Source: Brevinematales bacterium (GTDB lineage Bacteria > Spirochaetota > Brevinematia > Brevinematales > GWF1-51-8). From it: a stretch of 61,387 nucleotides of DNA. Numbering within the stretch: position 1 is the stretch's first letter; every line of letters begins with the position of its first letter. Of this stretch, positions 44,956 to 56,423 are shown one piece after another. Made by a program: the position numbers and the translations under genes. The stretch is taken from contig JAGVBZ010000002.1 of the NCBI GenBank assembly GCA_020059465.1, positions 1 through 61,387 of the forward strand, in the 5' to 3' direction. A model generated the notes under the pieces. It had not been told where the DNA came from. It saw only the letters and a program-made list of their open reading frames with translations, and searched no databases.

Positions 44956-45010
44956 ATTGTTATATAAACAAATCGGTATTATAATATTTTATAATACAGG
45001 TAGGAAATTT

Positions 45011-46351
45011 ATGAAAAATAAAATTCTGCATATCTCCGCTAAAGCCATCGTTATCCTGTTTCTTCTTATCAGTAGTGTCGATTGCAATGTATCTAAGGAT
45101 AAAGTTCAGTTATTACCGAATAAAGGGAACGGCGTATATTTTTCCGCCGATGGAACCGCTAAACTTACGGTTAATAACTCGATGAGAATCCTTCAGCTGC
45201 AGGGCGAGGGATATCAGATGGGGTATAATTACGGATATCTTCTCGGCAATGAAATAATAAATACCTTAAGGATTTATGTATTCTGGTTCTTTAAAAATCA
45301 GGACGCAAATAACTCTTTTCATAAAGTGCAGAAGTTACAGGAAAAATTTGTATGGACTTCTCCATATCTGAAAGAGCTGGAAGGAATGCTGAAAGGGATT
45401 TACGAAAGCGTAGGGACAAATAACCTGATGATACGGACTCCCGATGGAAAATCTCACATGCTAAATATGCAGGATTTGATGATACTAAATACAATCGGTG
45501 ATTGGGCATGTTCGAGTTTTTCAGTATGGGGTTCGCTGCGAAAAGACGGGTCGCTGCTCTTAGCGCGTAATCTGGATTACATGATCGACGAAAAGGATGA
45601 ATTTAGGAACTATCATCTGATTACAGTATATAAACCGGATGATGGGAACGATTGGATAAACATCGGAATGTGCGGTTCGATCGGCGCGATAACCGCTTTT
45701 AATCAGTATGGAATTTGCGGGGTTCTTCATAATACCATGTATTATAAATCCGAAAATAATACCGGATTTGTATCGCGGATGATATTACTCAGAGAACTGA
45801 TGGAAAAGATGGGAAAAAACTCTCTCCCGTCTGACGCTGAGCAGCTTATAGAAAAAACCCCTGCCTTTTGCGGGAATAATATTCTGATGTGCTTTAATAA
45901 TGCCTCGTCAGACAAGAACCACGCGGCTGTTTTTGAGTATGACGGGAAATATTCTCACCCTGACGGAAGGGTGACGGTACGTTTTTCGACCGACAACCCG
46001 ACGTTGCCGAAAAATAAGGATTATGACCAGACTCTTTCATATACTGATTGTATCATCAATGTCAATCATTACCTTCTTAGAAAGAAAGATGCGTTCACCG
46101 AGTATAAGAATTCGGTCGAAAGATACATAAAGCTGAAAAAGGGAATTATCGCCGCGGTTCAGAAAGACGGTGATATAGATGTTATGGACGCAAAGGATAT
46201 TCTGAAAACGGTCGATGGCAAGTATACATTGCATAGTGTGATTTTTAAACCGCAATCCGGGGAGTTGTATATTTATCTTTCTGATTCGCCGAAATCGGCG
46301 CTGGAATGCAAAGAATGGAAGTTTTCTATCGAGGAATTATGGAATTGGTAA
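45011..46351 (+). CDS. C45-family acyltransferase/hydrolase-like lipoprotein, copy 1
   Basis: This 446-residue protein has a lipoprotein signal peptide (VILFLLISSVDC, lipidated Cys). The catalytic core resembles autoproteolytic NTN hydrolases of the C45 (acyl-CoA:6-APA acyltransferase-like) family: GDWACSSFSVWGSLRKDG with the candidate nucleophile Cys, LARNLDYM, GMCGSIGAITAFNQYGICG and an HNTMYY region. A pre-domain of about 80 residues with QMGYNYGYLLGNEIINTL precedes it. The substrate is unknown. The Met at 45011 follows AGGTAGGA. It is a tandem paralogue of 46445-47785. Confidence 0.78.
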   Translation: MKNKILHISAKAIVILFLLISSVDCNVSKDKVQLLPNKGNGVYFSADGTAKLTVNNSMRILQLQGEGYQMGYNYGYLLGNEIINTLRIYVFWFFKNQDANNSFHKVQKLQEKFVWTSPYLKELEGMLKGIYESVGTNNLMIRTPDGKSHMLNMQDLMILNTIGDWACSSFSVWGSLRKDGSLLLARNLDYMIDEKDEFRNYHLITVYKPDDGNDWINIGMCGSIGAITAFNQYGICGVLHNTMYYKSENNTGFVSRMILLRELMEKMGKNSLPSDAEQLIEKTPAFCGNNILMCFNNASSDKNHAAVFEYDGKYSHPDGRVTVRFSTDNPTLPKNKDYDQTLSYTDCIINVNHYLLRKKDAFTEYKNSVERYIKLKKGIIAAVQKDGDIDVMDAKDILKTVDGKYTLHSVIFKPQSGELYIYLSDSPKSALECKEWKFSIEELWNW

Positions 46352-46444
46352 GAATTTATTATTGATATAAATATTTTCCTTTTTAAGGTTGAAAATTTCT
46401 AATTTTGTATTATTATATACATAGTGATGATTTCAGGAGGCAAT

Positions 46445-47785
46445 ATGAAAAGCGGGACAAAACTGTTTTTATTGGCATTATTAGCAGGGGCGGGGTTTGC
46501 GTCAGGCTGCGCGATATTTGTGGGGCTGAATCCTAATGCTAAGGAACTTCCCATGAAGGGCGACGGAGTTTACACATCTGTCTATGGCGGTCAGCTCACG
46601 GTCAGCGGCGCGATGAGAATGCTCAAGCTTCAGGGGAGCAATTATCAGATGGGCTACGATTACGGCTACCTGCTCGGCAACGAGATTATCAATACACTGC
46701 AGTTATATATCTACTGGGTGCTTTTCCTTAAATATCCCGTGCAGACATACGATGAGGTTTACTCGTTCCAGACCCGATTCACATGGGAAACGTCTTATTC
46801 CAACGAACTGGTCGGGATGCTCGACGGTATCTACGCCAGCGTGACGGAGGAAAATCTGACAATATTCCCGCCTAACGGGCCTGTCCATAAACTCAGTCTT
46901 CAGGATCTGATGGTAATGAACACCGTCGGGGACTGGATGTGTTCGAGCTTAGCGGCATGGGGAAGCGCGACATGGGATGGTTCTTTGGTGTTTGCGCGCA
47001 ACTTCGATTATCTTCCCGACAGCCAGTCCGAATGTAAGAAGCTCCATGTGGTTACTGTCTACAAATCGGCTGTCGCGGGTGTTCACAGTTGGGCAGGCGC
47101 CGGAGTATGCGGCGTCATCGGCGCGATGACCGCGATGAACGACGCCGGTGTAGCTGGGGTGCTTCACAATACCGACGGATATCCGTCGTCCGATACCGGC
47201 GGATATATTTCCCGGCTGATCGCCCTCCGAAAGATTATGGAAACGATCGGCAGCGCGGACGGACCCTCCAATGTGGTGACGTTGCTCAATGCGACTCCGG
47301 CATATTATGGGAATAACATAATGGTGGGTTTCAGCAATACTTCGCTCCCGTTGAACGATAAGGCTGTGGTATTCGAATATGACGGGGATGCTACTCAGCC
47401 CGGCGGTCGTGTGACCGCGCGGTATGCGTCCGACAACCCCTCGCTGCCGGATAACGCCTATTTCACCCAGAGTATGACCAATCTCAACCTGATTATCAAC
47501 GTCAACCATTATCTCAAACGTAAATCGGTCGCTCCGGGTTATACCGACGATTCCGGAAACCGTTACGCGATGATCACGAACCAGTTAAAAACATATCTCC
47601 CGTTGAAAATTGATATTACCAACGTGAGAACGATTATGATGACTGTGGATGACGTGTTTACCCTGCATAGCGTGATATTCCAGCCCGAGAAGGGTTTGAT
47701 CGATATCTATCTTTCAGACAGTCCTTTACCCGCGTTTGAATGTAAGAAGTACAGTTATACTCTGTCCCAGTTGTTAACCTGGTAA
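46445..47785 (+). CDS. C45-family acyltransferase/hydrolase-like lipoprotein, copy 2
   Basis: This 446-residue paralogue has the lipobox GFASGC and the same domain order. QMGYDYGYLLGNEIINTL is nearly identical to copy 1. The catalytic segment is GDWMCSSLAAWGSATWDG with FARNFDYL, and AGVCGVIGAMTAMNDAGVAG follows. The Met at 46445 is behind AGGAGG. This copy is clearly less AT-rich than copy 1, so the two differ in base composition despite being tandem; copy 1 may be the later or relaxed one. Both end with conserved aromatic W. Confidence 0.78.
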   Translation: MKSGTKLFLLALLAGAGFASGCAIFVGLNPNAKELPMKGDGVYTSVYGGQLTVSGAMRMLKLQGSNYQMGYDYGYLLGNEIINTLQLYIYWVLFLKYPVQTYDEVYSFQTRFTWETSYSNELVGMLDGIYASVTEENLTIFPPNGPVHKLSLQDLMVMNTVGDWMCSSLAAWGSATWDGSLVFARNFDYLPDSQSECKKLHVVTVYKSAVAGVHSWAGAGVCGVIGAMTAMNDAGVAGVLHNTDGYPSSDTGGYISRLIALRKIMETIGSADGPSNVVTLLNATPAYYGNNIMVGFSNTSLPLNDKAVVFEYDGDATQPGGRVTARYASDNPSLPDNAYFTQSMTNLNLIINVNHYLKRKSVAPGYTDDSGNRYAMITNQLKTYLPLKIDITNVRTIMMTVDDVFTLHSVIFQPEKGLIDIYLSDSPLPAFECKKYSYTLSQLLTW

Positions 47786-48045: not shown

Positions 48046-49080
48046 ATGCAAAATGCCATACTTCGCAAATCTCATCTCAACGATTTTATCTCGAAACTTG
48101 CGGTAATTGAAAAGGTAATGGCTCCTGTAGCCAAAGGCCCGAATCATTACGCGTTCGAGGAAGTAAAATCCGCGAAGGAGATTTCGCTCCAGTACATTCC
48201 CACCATTCTCCCGCCGAAAAAGTATTTTATGCCGCAGCATGAAACTCTTCTTGAGTACGACACCCGCGAAGGGCAGAAAATGCATGCGGTCGCAGAGGTT
48301 GAAAAAATGGTGCTGTTCGGCGTTCATACCTGCGACCTTGCCGGTATTCAGTGCCTGAATATTGTTTTTTCCGACCGCCCGAAAGACCTCAATTATCTGA
48401 TCCACAAGAACAAAATTGCCATCATCGGGTTCGAATGCAATAATTACTGTGACGAGCATGCGAGCTGTGCACTGATGGGAAACCATATCCCGAAAGGCGG
48501 ATACGACATGTTTTTCACCGACCTCGGGGACTATTTCTTTATTCATGTAAACACCCAGCTTGGCGAAGAATTATTGGACAAAACAGGGGTGTACGAAGAG
48601 GCGAAGATCGAGCATATGAATGCGCTCGAAGATCTCCGGGCGAAAAAGAAGGAAATCTTTAAAAACGAAGTCGATGTCGATAAAAATATGATACCGGAAT
48701 ATTTTAAAAAAGGTTTTGACAGTGCGGTGTGGGACGATTTGGGAGAAAGGTGTATCTCGTGCGGGAACTGTACCAACGTATGTCCGACCTGTTACTGCTT
48801 CGATGTCTATGACGATCCCGACCTCGGCGCGAAAACGGGAAAGCGTATCCGTGTATGGGACTCCTGCCAGAACGAACCGTTTGCACGGGTTGCAGGCGGC
48901 GAAAGCTTCCGTTCTCAGCGCAAAGACCGCAAGCGTCACCGCTTCAACCGGAAATTCCGTTATCCCGTCGAGCGGTACGGAAAATTTTTCTGCACAGGAT
49001 GCGGCAGATGTACCCGTGTGTGTATGGCGAAAATCAACCTCAAGGATACCATCAAATCCTTAGCGAAGGAGTACAAGTGA
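48046..49080 (+). CDS. hydB: Sulfhydrogenase-type hydrogenase beta subunit
   Basis: This 344-residue iron-sulfur subunit matches HydB of cytoplasmic group 3b [NiFe] hydrogenases. The N-terminal two-thirds resembles the AsrA-like domain with FGVHTCDLAGIQCLN, and two [4Fe-4S] motifs lie at the C-terminus: CISCGNCTNVCPTC and CTGCGRCTRVCMAKI. It would pass electrons between the catalytic pair and HydG. It is the first gene of hydB-hydG-hydD-hydA, the same order as in Pyrococcus. Confidence 0.88.
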   Translation: MQNAILRKSHLNDFISKLAVIEKVMAPVAKGPNHYAFEEVKSAKEISLQYIPTILPPKKYFMPQHETLLEYDTREGQKMHAVAEVEKMVLFGVHTCDLAGIQCLNIVFSDRPKDLNYLIHKNKIAIIGFECNNYCDEHASCALMGNHIPKGGYDMFFTDLGDYFFIHVNTQLGEELLDKTGVYEEAKIEHMNALEDLRAKKKEIFKNEVDVDKNMIPEYFKKGFDSAVWDDLGERCISCGNCTNVCPTCYCFDVYDDPDLGAKTGKRIRVWDSCQNEPFARVAGGESFRSQRKDRKRHRFNRKFRYPVERYGKFFCTGCGRCTRVCMAKINLKDTIKSLAKEYK

Positions 49081-49922
49081 TGGAAAAAATGAGTATAAAC
49101 CGTTCCGCTTATAAAATCAAGGAAGCGAAAATTTTAAGCGCCAGACGTCTGACGGACAGCGAAAAACTTTTCGATATCGCGCTCCAGAGCGGCGAAAGCC
49201 TCGATTACGAACCGGGGCAGTTTGCCGAAGTATCCATCTTCGGAGTGGGTGAGGCTCCGATTTCGATCTGTTCCTCTCCGACGAAAAGGGGTTCGTTTGA
49301 ACTCTGCGTACGTGCGGTCGGAGACGGGCGTTTTACCAACGCTATGCATAAACTTGAGGCCGGCGACGATATCGGTATTCGCGGCCCGTTCGGAGTGGGT
49401 TTTCCCGTGCAGCTTTTCGAAGGCAACGATCTTATGCTGGTTGCGGGCGGACTGGGTATCGCTCCCCTGCGTTCGCTGATTAATTATGTCATCGACAATC
49501 GCCGCGATTTCGGAAAGGTCAACATCCTTCTCGGCTGTAAGACCCCGCTGAATATGCTGTTCGGCGACGAGATCGAGGATTGGCAGAAACGCATCGATAT
49601 CAACTTCAGTTGTACGGTCGACCGCGGTGCGCCTGATTGGAAGGGCAACGTCGGTCTGATCACGTCGCTTATCCCCGGCGTCGACCTCGACCCGGAAAAT
49701 ACGTTTGCAGTAGTGGTGGGCCCGCCCATCATGTATAAGTTCGTTATCAAGGAATTGACCGGGAAGAATATCCCGGATCACCGGATCCTTGTTTCTCTCG
49801 AGCGGCATATGAAGTGCGGTCTCGGTAAATGCGGGCATTGCCAGATTCATAATATTTACTGTTGTCAGGACGGACCGGTGTTCTTCTACGACCGGATCAA
49901 AGATTTGAAGGGGGCAATCTAA
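49080..49922 (+). CDS. hydG: Hydrogenase gamma subunit, FAD/NAD(P)-binding
   Basis: The 280-residue diaphorase-like subunit reduces NAD(P) with electrons from HydB. An FAD domain (YEPGQFAEVSIFGVGEAPIS, APISICSSPTK), an NAD(P)-binding domain (LVAGGLGIAPLRSLINYVID), and a C-terminal [2Fe-2S] site (HMKCGLGKCGHCQIHNIYC) are clear. The ATG at 49080 overlaps the hydB TGA. The name hydG here means the hydrogenase gamma subunit, not the [FeFe] maturase. Confidence 0.9.
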   Translation: MEKMSINRSAYKIKEAKILSARRLTDSEKLFDIALQSGESLDYEPGQFAEVSIFGVGEAPISICSSPTKRGSFELCVRAVGDGRFTNAMHKLEAGDDIGIRGPFGVGFPVQLFEGNDLMLVAGGLGIAPLRSLINYVIDNRRDFGKVNILLGCKTPLNMLFGDEIEDWQKRIDINFSCTVDRGAPDWKGNVGLITSLIPGVDLDPENTFAVVVGPPIMYKFVIKELTGKNIPDHRILVSLERHMKCGLGKCGHCQIHNIYCCQDGPVFFYDRIKDLKGAI

Positions 49923-50662
49923 TGACAAAACCTAAGGTCGCGTTTTTCGATTTTGCTTGCTGCGAGGGTTGTCAGTTACAGGTCGCCAATCTGGGTGAAG
50001 CCCTTCTGGATATCCTCGAAGTGATAGATGTGGTGGAATTCCGCGAAGTTATGTCCGAAAAATGGCCGCAGAGTTTCGATATCGCTATTATTGAAGGAAG
50101 TATCACCACCAGTCACGCGGTAGAACGGATCAAAGAAATCCGCGCGCGTTCCAAAGTACTGATCGCGTACGGCTCCTGCGCCACTATCGGCGGAGTGAAC
50201 GGGATGAAGAATAATTACGAATTGAAGGATATCCGTGAATATGTCTATAAGGATAAAGCGGAGTTCTTCGATACGATTCCCACCCGCGCGGTTCATCAGG
50301 TGGTAAACGTCGATTATTCCGTCAACGGATGCCCGATTTATCCGCCCGAGTTTATCCGTATCCTCAAAGCCGCATTGGCGGGGCTTCCGTACCATGTGCC
50401 CGATAATTCGGTATGCGTCGAATGTAAGCTGAACGAGAATATCTGCCTGTTCGAGCGCGGGATATCTTGCGCCGGGCCCATCACACGTTCCGGATGCAAC
50501 TCGTGGTGCGTCAATAACGGCAACATCTGCTACGGCTGCCGCGGTATGGTCAGCAATCCGAACGAGAACGGGTTTAAGGCCGTACTCGAAAAGTATGATA
50601 TCACGGTGGATATGATTATGAACAAGATGAATATGTATAATAAATGCCGGGAGATCAAATAA
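49922..50662 (+). CDS. hydD: [NiFe] hydrogenase small (delta) subunit
   Basis: This 246-residue small subunit holds the electron-transfer clusters, with FDFACCEGCQLQVANLG at the N-terminus for the proximal [4Fe-4S] cluster and CXXC patterns VECKLNENICLFERG and CNSWCVNNGNICYGC at the C-terminus. No Tat signal is present, in line with a cytoplasmic enzyme. The ATG at 49922 overlaps the hydG stop (TAATG). Confidence 0.9.
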   Translation: MTKPKVAFFDFACCEGCQLQVANLGEALLDILEVIDVVEFREVMSEKWPQSFDIAIIEGSITTSHAVERIKEIRARSKVLIAYGSCATIGGVNGMKNNYELKDIREYVYKDKAEFFDTIPTRAVHQVVNVDYSVNGCPIYPPEFIRILKAALAGLPYHVPDNSVCVECKLNENICLFERGISCAGPITRSGCNSWCVNNGNICYGCRGMVSNPNENGFKAVLEKYDITVDMIMNKMNMYNKCREIK

Positions 50663-51984
50663 TGGGAAAGAATATAAAGGTCAATGTCGAATACTTGACC
50701 CGTGTGGAGGGTCACGGCAATATCGTGGTGAATGTAAACGACGGGGTGCTCGAAGAGTGCAAACTGGAGATCGTAGAAAGTCCGCGTTTCTTCGAGGGAA
50801 TGCTCAGGGGCCGCTCGATATTCGAGGCTCAGCATGTCACATCGCGTATCTGCGGTATCTGCGCATGCGGGCATAGTCTCGCGTCGATACAGGCCGCCGA
50901 GGACGCGATTGGATTCAAGCCCAGCGATCAGACTATCCGTCTCCGCAAGCTCCTGCTCCATATGGAGAACCTCGACAGCCATCTTCTGCATATTTACCTG
51001 CTGGTGGCTCCCGATCTCCTCGGCGTCAAGAGCTTCGTTCCCCTGATCGACTCGCATAATAAGGTCGTCCGCCGCGCCCTGCGTATGAAGAAGACATGCA
51101 ACGACGTCTGCGATATCCTTGCGGGACGGCATATTCACCCGATATCCAGTATCGTCGGCGGATGGACGAAGCTTCCCGACGAAAAGGCGCTCGACGCGAT
51201 GCTCGCGTATCTGAATGGGATGATTCCCGATATGAACGCGACCATCGAGCTTGCGGCGGGGCTGAAGTTCCCGGAATTGCAGCGTGATACTGAATATGTA
51301 GCGCTAGTCTCGGACGACGGGGAATACCCTCTCCTGATGGGCGACGTGGGTTCGACCGACGGTGTCCGAATGAATAAAAAGGATTATAAGAAAATCACGA
51401 ACGAATTCGTCGTACCGCATTCGTCCGCGAAACATACGAAGCTCAGCCGCGAATCCTATGCGGTCGGCGCGCTTGCCCGTTTTAATGTCAATTACAGCAA
51501 GCTCCGAAAGGAAGCCAAGGATATTGCGGCCGCAGTCGGGATGAAACCGAAGGTTACGAATCCCTACCTGAATACAGTCGCGCAGCTGATCGAATGCGCG
51601 GAAAGTCTCTATGACGCTATCGATATTGTCAAGCATTTCAAGGAAAAAGGGGTCGACCATTCGGAAGCGGTAGTAGTCGGGCTGAACGAGCAGAAGCGTA
51701 TTCTGGTCAAAGCGGGTTCCGGTGTGGGCGCTGTGGAAGTCCCGCGCGGACTGCTGTTCCATCATTATGAGGTGGACGACAAGGGGATCATTGTTAACGC
51801 GAACTGTATCATACCGACCGGCCAGAACTGCAATAATATCGAGCACGATATGAAGAAACTGGTTCCGGAGATACTCGATAAGTCGGAAGCCGAGATTACG
51901 CTCGCGCTCGAAATGCTGGTACGCGCATACGATCCGTGTATTTCCTGTTCGGCGCATTTCCTGGACGTAAAGTTTGTTAGATAG
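50662..51984 (+). CDS. hydA: [NiFe] hydrogenase large (alpha) subunit
   Basis: The 440-residue catalytic subunit binds the Ni-Fe(CN)2CO site. The N-terminal RICGICACGHSLASIQAAED (RxCxxC) and the C-terminal DPCISCSAHF (DPCxxC) give the four cysteine ligands. HPISSIVGGWTKLP supports group 3. After the conserved His, the tail FLDVKFVR is the peptide removed by the maturation protease. The start overlaps the hydD stop. Group 3b enzymes oxidise NADPH with H+ reduction or the reverse, and may reduce sulfur. Confidence 0.92.
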   Translation: MGKNIKVNVEYLTRVEGHGNIVVNVNDGVLEECKLEIVESPRFFEGMLRGRSIFEAQHVTSRICGICACGHSLASIQAAEDAIGFKPSDQTIRLRKLLLHMENLDSHLLHIYLLVAPDLLGVKSFVPLIDSHNKVVRRALRMKKTCNDVCDILAGRHIHPISSIVGGWTKLPDEKALDAMLAYLNGMIPDMNATIELAAGLKFPELQRDTEYVALVSDDGEYPLLMGDVGSTDGVRMNKKDYKKITNEFVVPHSSAKHTKLSRESYAVGALARFNVNYSKLRKEAKDIAAAVGMKPKVTNPYLNTVAQLIECAESLYDAIDIVKHFKEKGVDHSEAVVVGLNEQKRILVKAGSGVGAVEVPRGLLFHHYEVDDKGIIVNANCIIPTGQNCNNIEHDMKKLVPEILDKSEAEITLALEMLVRAYDPCISCSAHFLDVKFVR

Positions 51985-52450
51985 CGGTATCTCGGGATAT
52001 TTTAAAGCACCGGGTTATCCGTTTCTCATAGTGACTGTCGGCAATTCGCTGCGCAGCGATGACGGGGTTGGGCCGTATATCTCGTCGAAACTGACGGAAC
52101 TCCCAAGGGGATTCCACCTGCTGGACGCGGGAGACCGTCCCGAGAATATTGTTACCGACGCGGTAGATATCCGTCCCGCGCGGACAGTTATTATCGATGC
52201 CGCGGATTTCGGCGGGTTCCCCGGCGAGGCGCGTTTTATTCCTGACAGCGCGATCCCCCAAACCCCGCTCAGCACCCATTCCTTTCCGTTACCTGTAATC
52301 ACATCCATTCTCCGGCAGGATACCGGAAGCGAAGTGCGTTTCCTCGGGATTCAGGCGAAATCCCTCGGATTCGGCGAGGTTATTTCTCCGGAAGTTCTCG
52401 CGTCTGCCGATGAGATTATCTCGCTGATTACCGGATTTGTGACGGGATAA
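51974..52450 (+). CDS. hycI: Hydrogenase maturation protease (HycI/HyhD type)
   Basis: This 158-residue protease removes the C-terminal peptide of the large subunit once nickel is inserted. TVGNSLRSDDGVGPYISSKL is the family's metal-sensing GNxLxxDDGxG motif, DAGDRPENIV, DAADFGG and HSFPLPVITSIL follow. It starts at a TTG overlapping the end of hydA by 11 bases. It is the dedicated protease of this operon. Confidence 0.88.
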   Translation: MLDSGISGYFKAPGYPFLIVTVGNSLRSDDGVGPYISSKLTELPRGFHLLDAGDRPENIVTDAVDIRPARTVIIDAADFGGFPGEARFIPDSAIPQTPLSTHSFPLPVITSILRQDTGSEVRFLGIQAKSLGFGEVISPEVLASADEIISLITGFVTG

Positions 52451-52537
52451 ATCCTACCTTTTTTACAGGTAGTGACTGGATATTTTCCACAGAATTATAT
52501 ATAATTATTACGGTGTTTTTTGAATTTGGAGGCGGCG

Positions 52538-53836
52538 ATGTGCTATGCCATACCCGGAAGGGTCGAGGCGATGGACGAACGTTTTGTGACAGTGGATTAT
52601 TTCGGCGAGAAGAAGCGCGCGATTAACGAGCTTTCCGACCTGCGGATAGGGGATTATATTTACGCGCAGGGCGGATATGTCATACAGGCGCTTCCCGAAC
52701 AGGAAGCCCGTTCCATTCTATCGGTCTGGAAGGAAACGTTTTTCGAACTTCAGGAGATGGATCTTCAGCTCTCGCGGCTGGATATGAAAGACCGCGGGGT
52801 GGATAAAAAGACTCTGCGGTTACTCGATAAGGCCGCAGAATCCCGCCCGCTTTCCGGCGAAGAACTCTATCACCTGCTCAATCTCGAGAACGATCATGAA
52901 CGGTCGATGCTCTATAAAACCGCGAACTTTCTGCGCCGAAAGCATTTGGGAAATTCCTGCTGCGTGCATGGTATTATCGAATTCTCCTCTTATTGCCCGC
53001 GGAACTGCTTCTATTGCGGTATTTCCGCCCATAATAATAAACTTGCGCGTTACCGGATGACCGACGAGGAAATCTACGCGGCGGTCGACGAGGCTGTGGA
53101 AAAGCACGGATTCCAGGCGCTGGTGCTGCAGTCCGGCGAAGATCCTGAATTCCCCGCGCCGCGTCTGGCTGGAATCATCTGTGAGATCAAACTCAGGCAT
53201 CCGTGCCTGATATTTATCAGCGTTGGGGAAATCGGTATCGACGGGCTTCGCGAACTGTACGACGCGGGAGCGAGGGGAGTCCTGCTCCGTTTCGAGACGT
53301 CCAATCCTGAACTCTATCAAACGCTCCATCCGGGATATAGTCTGGACAGCCGTATCGCGCACCTGAAAGCGGCGTATGAGATGGGTTACCTGATTATTAC
53401 CGGAGGGCTGATCGGCGTGCCGGGGCAGACGAAGCGCGATATGCTGAACGATATCCTGCTCGCGCGGGAACTGCATTCCGAGATGTACAGCTTCGGGCCG
53501 TTCATCCCGCATCCCGGTACTCCTCTTGCGGATAAAACGGTCGCCCCGGTCGAACAAATCCTGAATACGCTGGCGGCTGCGCGTATCGCCGACCCTGATA
53601 ATGCGAAAATACTGGTGACGACATCGTTCGAGACGGCAGACCCGGAGGCGCGAGAGAAAGGGCTGATGGCGGGTGCGAACTCGGTCATGCTGAATGTCAC
53701 CCCGGAACGTTTCCGGGAGTGCTACGAGATTTACCCGAACCGCGCGCACCTGCATGAAAGTATCCCAGTTCAGATCGAGACGACCCTCAATCTGCTGCGC
53801 GGCCTCGGGCGCGCGCCCACCGATCTGGGGGTGTGA
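52538..53836 (+). CDS. HypC-HydE-like radical SAM fusion
   Basis: This 432-residue protein has an N-terminal HypC domain (residues 1-70): MCYAIPGRVEAMDERFVTVD, then DLRIGDYIYAQGGYVIQALP and EQEARSIL, with the conserved N-terminal Cys2. In normal HypC the loop WVLVHVGFA has a key His; here it is AQGGYV, so the His is replaced by Gln. A linker and a radical SAM domain follow, with SSYCPRNCFYCGISAHN (CX3CX2C) and a HydE/BioB-like barrel to ILKTTL-type strands (LITGGLIGVPGQTKRD). The ATG at 52538 with GGAGG matches the MC start. It lies after the hydrogenase operon. Confidence 0.82.
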   Translation: MCYAIPGRVEAMDERFVTVDYFGEKKRAINELSDLRIGDYIYAQGGYVIQALPEQEARSILSVWKETFFELQEMDLQLSRLDMKDRGVDKKTLRLLDKAAESRPLSGEELYHLLNLENDHERSMLYKTANFLRRKHLGNSCCVHGIIEFSSYCPRNCFYCGISAHNNKLARYRMTDEEIYAAVDEAVEKHGFQALVLQSGEDPEFPAPRLAGIICEIKLRHPCLIFISVGEIGIDGLRELYDAGARGVLLRFETSNPELYQTLHPGYSLDSRIAHLKAAYEMGYLIITGGLIGVPGQTKRDMLNDILLARELHSEMYSFGPFIPHPGTPLADKTVAPVEQILNTLAAARIADPDNAKILVTTSFETADPEAREKGLMAGANSVMLNVTPERFRECYEIYPNRAHLHESIPVQIETTLNLLRGLGRAPTDLGV

Positions 53837-53842
53837 TTATTT
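53772..53842 (+). repeat. Direct repeat, HypC-radical SAM gene 3' end, proximal copy
   Basis: This 71-bp stretch covers the end of the fusion gene and its TGA stop, plus the vapC stop. It matches 54520-54589 except for one missing base. Confidence 0.92.
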
Positions 53843-54244
53843 GAGATAAGGATTCAAAATTTGCAATCTTTCCTCGATGATCTGTTTATGCTGCATATCC
53901 TCGGAATAAAGTACGGTACAGTTATTCTCTAAAGCAGATGCGAGTATCAAACTGTCATAATAGGAAAAAGAATATGTGCCTGCGAGATTCAGTGCCAATG
54001 CGATGGTTTTATAATCGATCAATGCAAGATGAGAATTTTCCACAATTTTCGAGGTTATCTGAAAAATCGACGGATAGTCGAAATGAAATTTTCGGTGCAT
54101 TACATTTGAGATTTCATTGATTACCTGCGTTGATATAACCGGTTTCCTTTCAAGAAGTTGCAGAGTGCTTTCTTTCTTTGGCGGGTATTTATCTATTGCG
54201 TAAATGATTACAGAAGAATCCAGAAAGAATAAGCTATCGCTCAT
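53837..54244 (-). CDS. vapC: VapC-type PIN-domain ribonuclease toxin
   Basis: The 135-residue PIN protein has FFLDSSVIIYAIDKYP at the start (first acidic residue), INEISNVMHRKF, and SYYDSLILASALEN, with TVLYSEDMQHK bearing the last acidic residues. PIN toxins of VapBC systems cleave tRNA or other RNA. The Met at 54244 is used; the antitoxin overlaps it by 11 bases. Its stop TAA lies within the proximal repeat. The gene is AT-rich. Confidence 0.85.
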   Translation of the reverse strand: MSDSLFFLDSSVIIYAIDKYPPKKESTLQLLERKPVISTQVINEISNVMHRKFHFDYPSIFQITSKIVENSHLALIDYKTIALALNLAGTYSFSYYDSLILASALENNCTVLYSEDMQHKQIIEERLQILNPYLK

Positions 54245-54443
54245 TCGCTTCTTCCCGATCAAATTTGAAATGGCTTAGGTCTAATTGGAACTGATCGAAG
54301 AAAGACCTTAAGTCTTTTCCTTTTTCGAATTCCTCAGAGTTATCGGTATTCAGAATCACTTGTACTTCCTGTCTGACTTGGGGTTTTTCTTCATCTGTCA
54401 ATTCGATTTTTCCATTATCGTAGATTCCATGTAGTATTATCAT
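54234..54443 (-). CDS. Antitoxin of the VapBC-like pair
   Basis: This 69-residue protein begins MIILHGIYDNGKIELTDEEKP and has RQEVQVILNTD, a short strand pattern like the DUF104/DUF2281-type antitoxins that pair with PIN toxins, followed by an acidic helical tail (SEEFEKGKDLRSFFDQFQLD). It is upstream of vapC, overlaps it and would be translated first. No clear DNA-binding fold can be assigned by eye. I call it antitoxin mainly from the context. Confidence 0.75.
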   Translation of the reverse strand: MIILHGIYDNGKIELTDEEKPQVRQEVQVILNTDNSEEFEKGKDLRSFFDQFQLDLSHFKFDREEANER

Positions 54444-54890: not shown

Positions 54891-56423
54891 GTGAAACGTT
54901 TTAAATTATTCCTGATCGCGTTCGTATCGGCAATATTAATTCCGGCTGTATCTTACTCGGCGGTGTTAAAGGCGCTGCTGATTATACAGGATAATTACTA
55001 TGACTCGGGTCTGAACAGTATAGCAGAGGATGTCCGGCTCGATCTGGGACATGTCCAGTCGCTGCTGAATAATCTCGAAAAGGGGAATGTGATAGACGTT
55101 GAGATTACAGTTCTGAAAGGAAAGAACGCCACCTATGCCAATATGGAAAAACTCCTAAAGAATGTGGAAACCGAGAAGGACGATGTTCTGCTTTTTTATT
55201 TCAGCGGGCACGGCGGAATGGATAAAAATAAAACATTTCTGCTCACGACGGATAAGAAATTTTTCTATCGTGACGATGTCGAGAAGTATCTTAAATCCAA
55301 GAAGGCGAAGCTGAAAATAGCAATTTCCGATGCGTGCAGCAGTTCTATCGGCGGGATCGATTCGCGGGGATTGTTCGAGACCCCCGAGGAGATGGCGAAA
55401 AAAGAGAACACGTTTGTCGAGATCTATAAAAACCTGTTCCTGAACTACGAGGGTATGCTTTATATCACATCGGCAAGTCCCGGCGAGTATGCGTGGGGAT
55501 TCGGCAGCGGAGGATCGTTCACCATGTCGTTTTTCAACGAAGTCTTATTCAACGATCCTAAGTTTACATGGGAAGAAGTTATCGACGCGGCGTCGAAACT
55601 CACTCAGGAAAAATACGCCTATATGGTTAATATGGGGAATCTTCCCGATGCTATGAAAAAGGACCTCAAGAAGAAAGGGATTACTGGCCAGCACCCGTAT
55701 ATATATTCGATGGTGAGCGCTATCGATAAAAATGTCACCGAGGTTCTTCCTGTCCAGAATATAGATAAGCAGGAGGCCGGCGACGTCCTTGTCCGAAACG
55801 ATTCCCCGGTTACAGTCAAGTTTTATATTGATAACAACAAATCGCACGACAGTCAATGGTCATGGAAAAATGTAGAGACATATTATATCGACGCGGGGAA
55901 AACCCTATCCTTGAAGACAAAGAAATCGATGCTGGTATTTTTCAAGCAGGACCGGTACGATTATGTTTCTTATACGCTGAAACCCGGGAAATATGTTTTT
56001 ACCCTTAACCAGAAAGATATGGTCGATTTATTTACCGATTCCGGGAAAAAAACTGCCAAGAAAACGGATGTTAAGGCAAATCCGATTATCGGAAAATGGA
56101 CATGGGATATGTGGACTGTCGAGGATATTAATAAGGGCAGCAAATCGAAGAACGGAGTGTTGTACTCCATCGACTTTAAGCCCGATAATACGTTTGTTAT
56201 TACCGACAGCAAGGGTAAGAAAACCGATTGGGGCAAATGGGAATCCGAGATTGCGTCGGGACGAGAATATCTGACAATTGAAAAGCAGGACGGAAAGACT
56301 CCTATAGTATTGAAAATGGAAGTCAATTACCTGAAGAACTCCTATATCCAGCTTTTACCGAAAATGCTGAATAACGTCAAGAAGGACGTCGACGAAGTTC
56401 CGCAGATATTTTTATACAAGTAG
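54891..56423 (+). CDS. Exported caspase-like peptidase with lipocalin-like tail
   Basis: This 510-residue protein starts at GTG 54891 behind AGGAGG and has a signal peptide (FLIAFVSAILIPAVSYSA). A peptidase C14 caspase/metacaspase domain (about 25-255) has the catalytic pair in VLLFYFSGHGGMDKN (His) and IAISDACSSSIGG (Cys). The C-terminus (residues 395-505, IIGKWTWDMWTVEDINKG to QLLPKML) has the lipocalin-like GKW...W pattern. Such a secreted protease would act in the periplasm or outside the cell. The substrate is unknown. Confidence 0.8.
   Translation: MKRFKLFLIAFVSAILIPAVSYSAVLKALLIIQDNYYDSGLNSIAEDVRLDLGHVQSLLNNLEKGNVIDVEITVLKGKNATYANMEKLLKNVETEKDDVLLFYFSGHGGMDKNKTFLLTTDKKFFYRDDVEKYLKSKKAKLKIAISDACSSSIGGIDSRGLFETPEEMAKKENTFVEIYKNLFLNYEGMLYITSASPGEYAWGFGSGGSFTMSFFNEVLFNDPKFTWEEVIDAASKLTQEKYAYMVNMGNLPDAMKKDLKKKGITGQHPYIYSMVSAIDKNVTEVLPVQNIDKQEAGDVLVRNDSPVTVKFYIDNNKSHDSQWSWKNVETYYIDAGKTLSLKTKKSMLVFFKQDRYDYVSYTLKPGKYVFTLNQKDMVDLFTDSGKKTAKKTDVKANPIIGKWTWDMWTVEDINKGSKSKNGVLYSIDFKPDNTFVITDSKGKKTDWGKWESEIASGREYLTIEKQDGKTPIVLKMEVNYLKNSYIQLLPKMLNNVKKDVDEVPQIFLYK

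Follow-up and report, generated by a model that had tools for sequence, protein, structure and literature searches.

The question raised by this locus is what a single protein, assembled from parts of two otherwise separate hydrogenase maturation systems, might do beside a [NiFe] hydrogenase operon. The window, i.e. the whole stretch of 61,387 nucleotides that was analysed (contig JAGVBZ010000002.1 of the Brevinematales bacterium assembly GCA_020059465.1), contains a hydBGDA operon whose products are nearest to the subunits of NADP-dependent sulfhydrogenases. A gene for a HycI-like protease comes next, and the gene of interest lies directly downstream of these (Table 1). Its ORF (52538..53836 on the forward strand, the stop codon ending at 53836) encodes a protein of 432 aa with an N-terminal HypC domain and, in the same chain, a radical SAM enzyme of the HydE type. 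A GGAGG Shine-Dalgarno sequence (52528-52532) lies just ahead of the ATG at 52538, therefore the cysteine is residue 2 of the fusion. The large subunit HydA carries the ligand motifs RICGIC and DPCISC, the PRG motif and a C-terminal tail, and the real start of hydD is probably further downstream within the ORF given in the table. Note that the hydrogenase subunit hydG of the window is not the maturase HydG that is discussed below. As to the surroundings, two tandem paralogous lipoprotein-like ORFs (464 and 453 aa; 44957-47785) are situated between an NfnB/GltD-like gene and hydBGDA, a PIN-domain toxin-like ORF (53837-54262, reverse strand) is convergent with the fusion gene, and a caspase-like protease ORF (54891-56423, forward strand) lies beyond it, the last two being assigned by eye.

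Table 1. Hydrogenase operon of the window and the two domains of the fusion protein
Feature	Position	Strand	Evidence
Iron-sulfur subunit hydB (sulfhydrogenase beta)	48046..49080	+	PF17179, NF040833
FAD/NAD(P)-binding subunit hydG (sulfhydrogenase gamma)	49074..49922	+	NF006220, NF040830
[NiFe] small subunit hydD	49862..50662	+	PF01058, NF040831
[NiFe] large subunit hydA	50662..51984	+	PF00374, NF040832; motifs
HycI-like hydrogenase maturation protease	51974..52450	+	PF01750, TIGR00072 over cut-off
HypC domain, residues 1-64	52538..52729	+	PF01455, HypC 2z1c fold, C2/Q44 invariance
HydE-like radical SAM domain	52823..53833	+	TIGR03956, T. maritima HydE matches, residue comparison

An earlier note, made from the DNA sequence alone, had read the gene as HypC fused to a HydE-like radical SAM enzyme following hydBGDA and its protease, and model matches, folds and operon order all agree with this reading. 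The HypC domain scores 45.8 bits against the Pfam model HupF_HypC (PF01455; cut-off 28.5) and has T. kodakarensis HypC among its matches; the Radical_SAM and BATS models of Pfam are likewise over their cut-offs. The HydE model TIGR03956 matches residues 96-405 with an E-value of 1.2e-72 and 245.1 bits, a score just below the equivalog cut-off of 254.6, and among solved structures the C-terminal half is closest to the HydE of T. maritima (217 bits). The AlphaFold2 model of the whole chain is confident across both halves (pLDDT 93.0, pTM 0.91) and superimposes on T. maritima HydE (3iiz) with a TM-score of 0.93 on the target. When the N-terminal 82 residues were modelled separately, the top match in the PDB was HypC 2z1c (TM 0.81/0.89), as the note had expected of this region. 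The [4Fe-4S] cluster motif CX3CX2C corresponds to Cys153, Cys157 and Cys160, and the residues Cys142 and His144 constitute a signature of the family.

The same domain order recurs in many uncultured bacteria. Of 50 loci obtained by scanning 84,980 species genomes, about 45 encode full-length fusions with 41-78% identity, and a chance fusion is excluded because so many full-length orthologues exist. They are distributed over Omnitrophota, Spirochaetota, Atribacterota (Caldatribacterium), Elusimicrobiota, Nitrospirota, WOR-1, WOR-3, UBP13 and others. The fusion proteins of two MAGs from one site (L003 and L004) are identical, therefore one of these MAGs is probably mis-binned. Of 46 fusion loci, many of which are truncated at contig ends, 32 show a large subunit resembling that of the window, 32 a protease, 27 a HypA-like gene and 19 HydG. 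The expected association with [NiFe] hydrogenases was thus borne out, but its restriction to group 3 enzymes was not, as numerous relatives of the fusion adjoin group-4-like complexes. Two further features of these neighbourhoods deserve mention. Many loci have, between protease and fusion, a gene for a mini-HypA of about 80 aa (PF01155 over cut-off) that keeps the Met-His-Glu start and is missing the zinc-finger half (L012:4449-4694, L016:6077-6319, L137:8407-8649 and others); there is none between protease and fusion in the window. In addition, a gene for a Rex-like redox-sensing repressor, identified by eye, adjoins the fusion at L012:6105-6737 and at about a dozen further loci, which suggests that the fusion operon is under NADH/NAD+ control.

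Residue conservation in the family follows a clear pattern. Cys2, Gln44, Cys142, His144 and the cluster cysteines are invariant in 44/44 fusion sequences, so the combination that the earlier note had pointed out in the window protein, a retained Cys2 together with Gln44 in the place of the HypC histidine, is a family-wide property. In standard HypC this histidine is positioned at the HypD/ATP pocket (PMC11565642), and its loss therefore fits the absence of HypD that is described below. The HydE half keeps most of the HydE site: in the numbering of T. maritima HydE, C63/C67/C70, Q107, R159, E161, R180, M224, T268, M291, Y303 and Y306 are invariant in the 44 fusions. Three residues that are invariant in stand-alone HydE are replaced, i.e. 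R54 is His in 72/72 fused proteins and Arg in 19/19 stand-alone HydE proteins, T134 is F, C or I, and R155 is G or A. Moreover, Cys142 is present in 72/72 fused proteins and is not among the common residues at this position in stand-alone HydE. Cys142 and His144 may together provide a second iron site, which in the standard pathway is supplied by HypD. In the phylogenetic tree a branch with 100% SH-aLRT support lies between the fused HydE and its stand-alone counterpart from [FeFe] genomes; three tree labels of "stand-alone HydE" (L030, L073 and L145) were rejected as start-site or contig-edge artefacts of fusions. The group is best named a fused HypC-HydE family, with a branch of its own.

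The genomes that carry the fusion have [NiFe] hydrogenases and are devoid of the central Hyp proteins. A [NiFe] large subunit was found in 31/31 fusion genomes, and the 56 large subunits that were read all keep the four cysteine ligands (two CxxC motifs) and the PRG motif; an equal occurrence of the fusion in genomes without hydrogenase, which would have spoken against the proposal of the earlier note, was not seen. HypD was detected in none of the 31 fusion genomes (32 genomes were searched, one of which, G031, has plain HydE only), HypF over cut-off in none of the 31, and HypE in none of 52, with 8/8 HypD-bearing control genomes positive for HypE, all these absences to be read with the incompleteness of the MAG assemblies in mind. 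In the genome of the window the fused copy is the sole HypC. Since HypD, HypE and HypF are absent, the Hyp route has most likely been replaced and not given an extra supplier. Two hits to HypF (128 bits, in G000 and G001) were rejected, as they belong to a 525-aa protein without the other HypF domains. This protein, which contains only the C-terminal Kae1-like carbamoyltransferase domains of HypF, is encoded at L086:1063-2640 in the genome of the window and at L087:1051-2619, and its genomes have neither HypD nor HypE.

The relation of the fusion to HypD could be followed in Omnitrophota, where 237 genomes contain HypD in 86, the fusion in 35, a [NiFe] hydrogenase in 130 and HydG in 106 cases. 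Of the 35 fusions, 26 have a long linker and 9 a short one. Among the 130 [NiFe]-positive genomes HypD is found in 84 and the fusion in 35; the two never occur together, and 11 genomes have neither (Fisher p = 2.2e-22, a value inflated by kinship as the counts come from related, phylogenetically non-independent MAGs). All 35 fusion genomes contain a [NiFe] hydrogenase and 34 of them contain HydG, whereas HydG is found in only 17 of the 86 HypD genomes. Seven Omnitrophota with a strong [NiFe] hit (G054, G102, G105, G108, G168, G197 and G257) have neither HypD nor the fusion, and they are either incomplete MAGs or represent a further variant. The HypD-less fusion recurs in several phyla besides Omnitrophota.

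The partner that does accompany the fusion is the maturase HydG, which is over cut-off in 28/31 fusion genomes. The catalytic domain of [FeFe] hydrogenase is missing from 15 of the 31; HydG is present in 14 of these 15 and HydF over cut-off in none. HydG was not detected in G028, a genome without [FeFe] hydrogenase, and none was over cut-off in G004; these gaps may be due to incomplete assemblies. The genome of the window does have [FeFe] hydrogenases, and its HydG (L094:7004-8497), HydF and stand-alone HydE (L095:1843-2943) are sited away from the fusion. A separate stand-alone HydE is found in most fusion genomes that bear [FeFe] hydrogenases. In Omnitrophota HydG is immediately beside 8 of the 9 short-linker fusions, and there are two single-chain HypC-HydE-HydG proteins, one of 943 aa in a Nitrospirae MAG (L044:8001-10832) and one of 915 aa in Omnitrophota (L137:8651-11398). 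Both triple fusions stand beside [NiFe] genes and contain HypC, two radical SAM domains and matches to HydE and HydG; they score 304-332 bits against TIGR03956 across the whole chain. A variant of HydG, in which the cysteines of the auxiliary cluster are spaced as CX5CX19C in place of CX2CX22C, is encoded at L094:7004-8497 in the genome of the window and in many relatives. It was considered as a marker of [NiFe]-specific HydG and rejected, as it occurs in an [FeFe] operon too (G018, L103); fusion genomes without [FeFe] hydrogenase contain both cysteine forms.

On the basis of these observations we consider it probable that an alternative [NiFe] maturation route operates without HypD, HypE and HypF and that the fusion forms its core. 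The genomic evidence for such a HypDEF-free route is strong and consists of what was observed here: which genes are present, which are absent and which occur together, the triple fusions, the folds and the conserved residues. Every chemical step, with the CN-/CO count, the carrier step and the role of Cys142/His144, is what we infer. It is known that the Fe(Cys)(CN)(CO)2 made by HydG goes straight to HydE and is reduced there via adenosylation (PMC12752695), and that the large subunit receives Fe(CN)2CO from Cys2 of HypC (PMC11565642). The fusion would unite these two steps, the receipt of the HydG product and the carriage on Cys2, in one chain. We propose that HydG would form CO and CN- from tyrosine and assemble the cysteine-bound Fe(CN)(CO)2 unit, which the HydE half would then take over, just as HydE receives it when [FeFe] hydrogenases are matured. 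The iron unit would next be freed from the cysteine by radical chemistry of the HydE half and moved to Cys2 of the HypC half, possibly with Cys142/His144 as second ligands replacing Cys41 of HypD, and the ligand set would be adjusted to the need of the hydrogenase (normally Fe(CN)2CO). The HypC half would subsequently dock to the apo large subunit and deliver the iron, after which HypA-type proteins would add nickel and the neighbouring protease would trim the tail. The earlier note had proposed an iron-ligand or CO-forming role: the former has gained genomic support, whereas the latter is unlikely for the fusion itself, because the HydE site is retained in its HydE half and because the CO- and CN--forming HydG is separate, co-occurring and sometimes adjacent or fused. 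The likely source of CO is HydG.

The rival explanations differ in what they ask of the two halves. The simplest would be that the fusion is an ordinary HydE of [FeFe] hydrogenases with an incidental HypC domain, the [NiFe] operon being matured by overlooked Hyp proteins. The HydE-like sequence and fold would agree with this, as would the [FeFe] hydrogenases, HydG and HydF of the window genome, but it fails to account for the 15 fusion genomes without [FeFe] domain and without HydF over cut-off, for the separate stand-alone HydE in most of the remainder, for searches for HypD, HypE and HypF that stayed negative with positive controls, and for the mutual exclusion of fusion and HypD among [NiFe]-positive Omnitrophota (p = 2e-22); we regard it as extremely improbable and largely refuted. 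It might also be argued that the radical SAM half is an enzyme of the BioB/PylB type by which either the large subunit or a small molecule is modified, HypC being merely a targeting domain. The fusion does score against the PylB and BioB models, it remains just below the HydE equivalog cut-off, and it departs from all 19 stand-alone HydE proteins at R54, T134 and R155; however, HydE is the top match by a wide margin in both sequence and fold, the remaining site residues are invariant, HydG co-occurs and is also fused, and the absence of HypDEF would be left unexplained, which makes this reading very unlikely.

The two other alternatives are closer to the proposed route. The HydE half could only aid the supply or insertion of CO or iron, with cyanide coming from an unrecognised enzyme, another scaffold replacing HypD and HydG being kept for other reasons. 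Three of the 31 fusion genomes without HydG over cut-off and the HypF-C-terminal-like protein of G000 and G001 could be cited in its favour. We find it very unlikely nonetheless, given that HydG accompanies the fusion in nearly all Omnitrophota concerned, is adjacent in many loci and was fused twice, and that the HypF-like protein is limited to two genomes and has none of the other HypF domains. The last alternative concerns the ligands. The iron of known [NiFe] sites bears two CN- and one CO, and the arginine of the PRG motif belongs to the surroundings in which cyanide is bound in normal sites. HydG gives one CN- per two CO on iron, a mismatch on which the sequences give no clue: either a ligand exchange takes place, and we would expect an Fe(I) intermediate to be labile, or the iron of these enzymes is unusual. 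The route could thus be as proposed, with an unusual iron such as Fe(CO)2(CN) and no exchange. The HydG stoichiometry of two CO and one CN- (PMC12752695) and the lack of HypE/HypF for a second cyanide are in line with this, but the PRG motif is retained in the large subunits, whose sequences look ordinary, and we see it as a minor possibility.

It is instructive to set the proposed HypC-HydE route against the known systems. Like the HypCDEF route of E. coli and Thermococcus kodakarensis, it has a HypC domain with Cys2 beside a [NiFe] large subunit and a protease, and a HypA-like partner at many loci; unlike it, HypD, HypE and HypF are missing, HypC is joined to a radical SAM enzyme, and the histidine of the HypC-HypD interface is replaced. 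The similarity to HydE of the HydEFG system (T. maritima, 3iiz) includes the fold, the [4Fe-4S] cysteine motif, the SAM site and most substrate-site residues as well as the partnership with HydG, whereas the N-terminal HypC, the changes at R54, T134 and R155, the invariant Cys142, the separate tree branch and the fact that half of the genomes have no HydF or [FeFe] hydrogenase are differences. HypX is comparable in as much as it is a dedicated enzyme tied to the CO ligand of [NiFe] hydrogenase; it makes CO from formyl-tetrahydrofolate in aerobic [NiFe] maturation and supplements HypCDEF under O2, and it is unrelated in sequence to the fusion, whose system is HypDEF-free and radical SAM based. 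Functionally the fusion would resemble HypC as an iron carrier and HydE as the recipient of the HydG product, and it belongs to neither standard pathway: there is no HypD/E/F and no HypC histidine, and HydF and [FeFe] hydrogenase are missing in half of the genomes. A 2025 review calls the anaerobic CO source the most pressing question and mentions neither HydG, HydE nor radical SAM enzymes (PMC12134894). In the open literature (subscription journals and preprints were outside the scope) we found no description of the fusion or of a use of HydG/HydE for [NiFe] hydrogenases. The novelty is in the assembly route, as each protein part is from a known family.

Taken as a whole, a third maturation pathway, in which CO and CN- made by HydG from tyrosine reach [NiFe] hydrogenases via HypC-HydE and which replaces HypCDEF in several phyla, appears to us the probable answer. 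If this is true, tyrosine would be the anaerobic CO source of these [NiFe] enzymes, and there would be a HypDEF-free route for which the genes themselves tell where the CO comes from. It would also link two hydrogenase maturation systems that are otherwise kept apart, and [NiFe] hydrogenases could be expressed with the help of a compact maturation kit, possibly of one or two proteins. For the candidate phyla, finally, it would mean that a genome missing hypD is not necessarily a genome missing a working [NiFe] hydrogenase.
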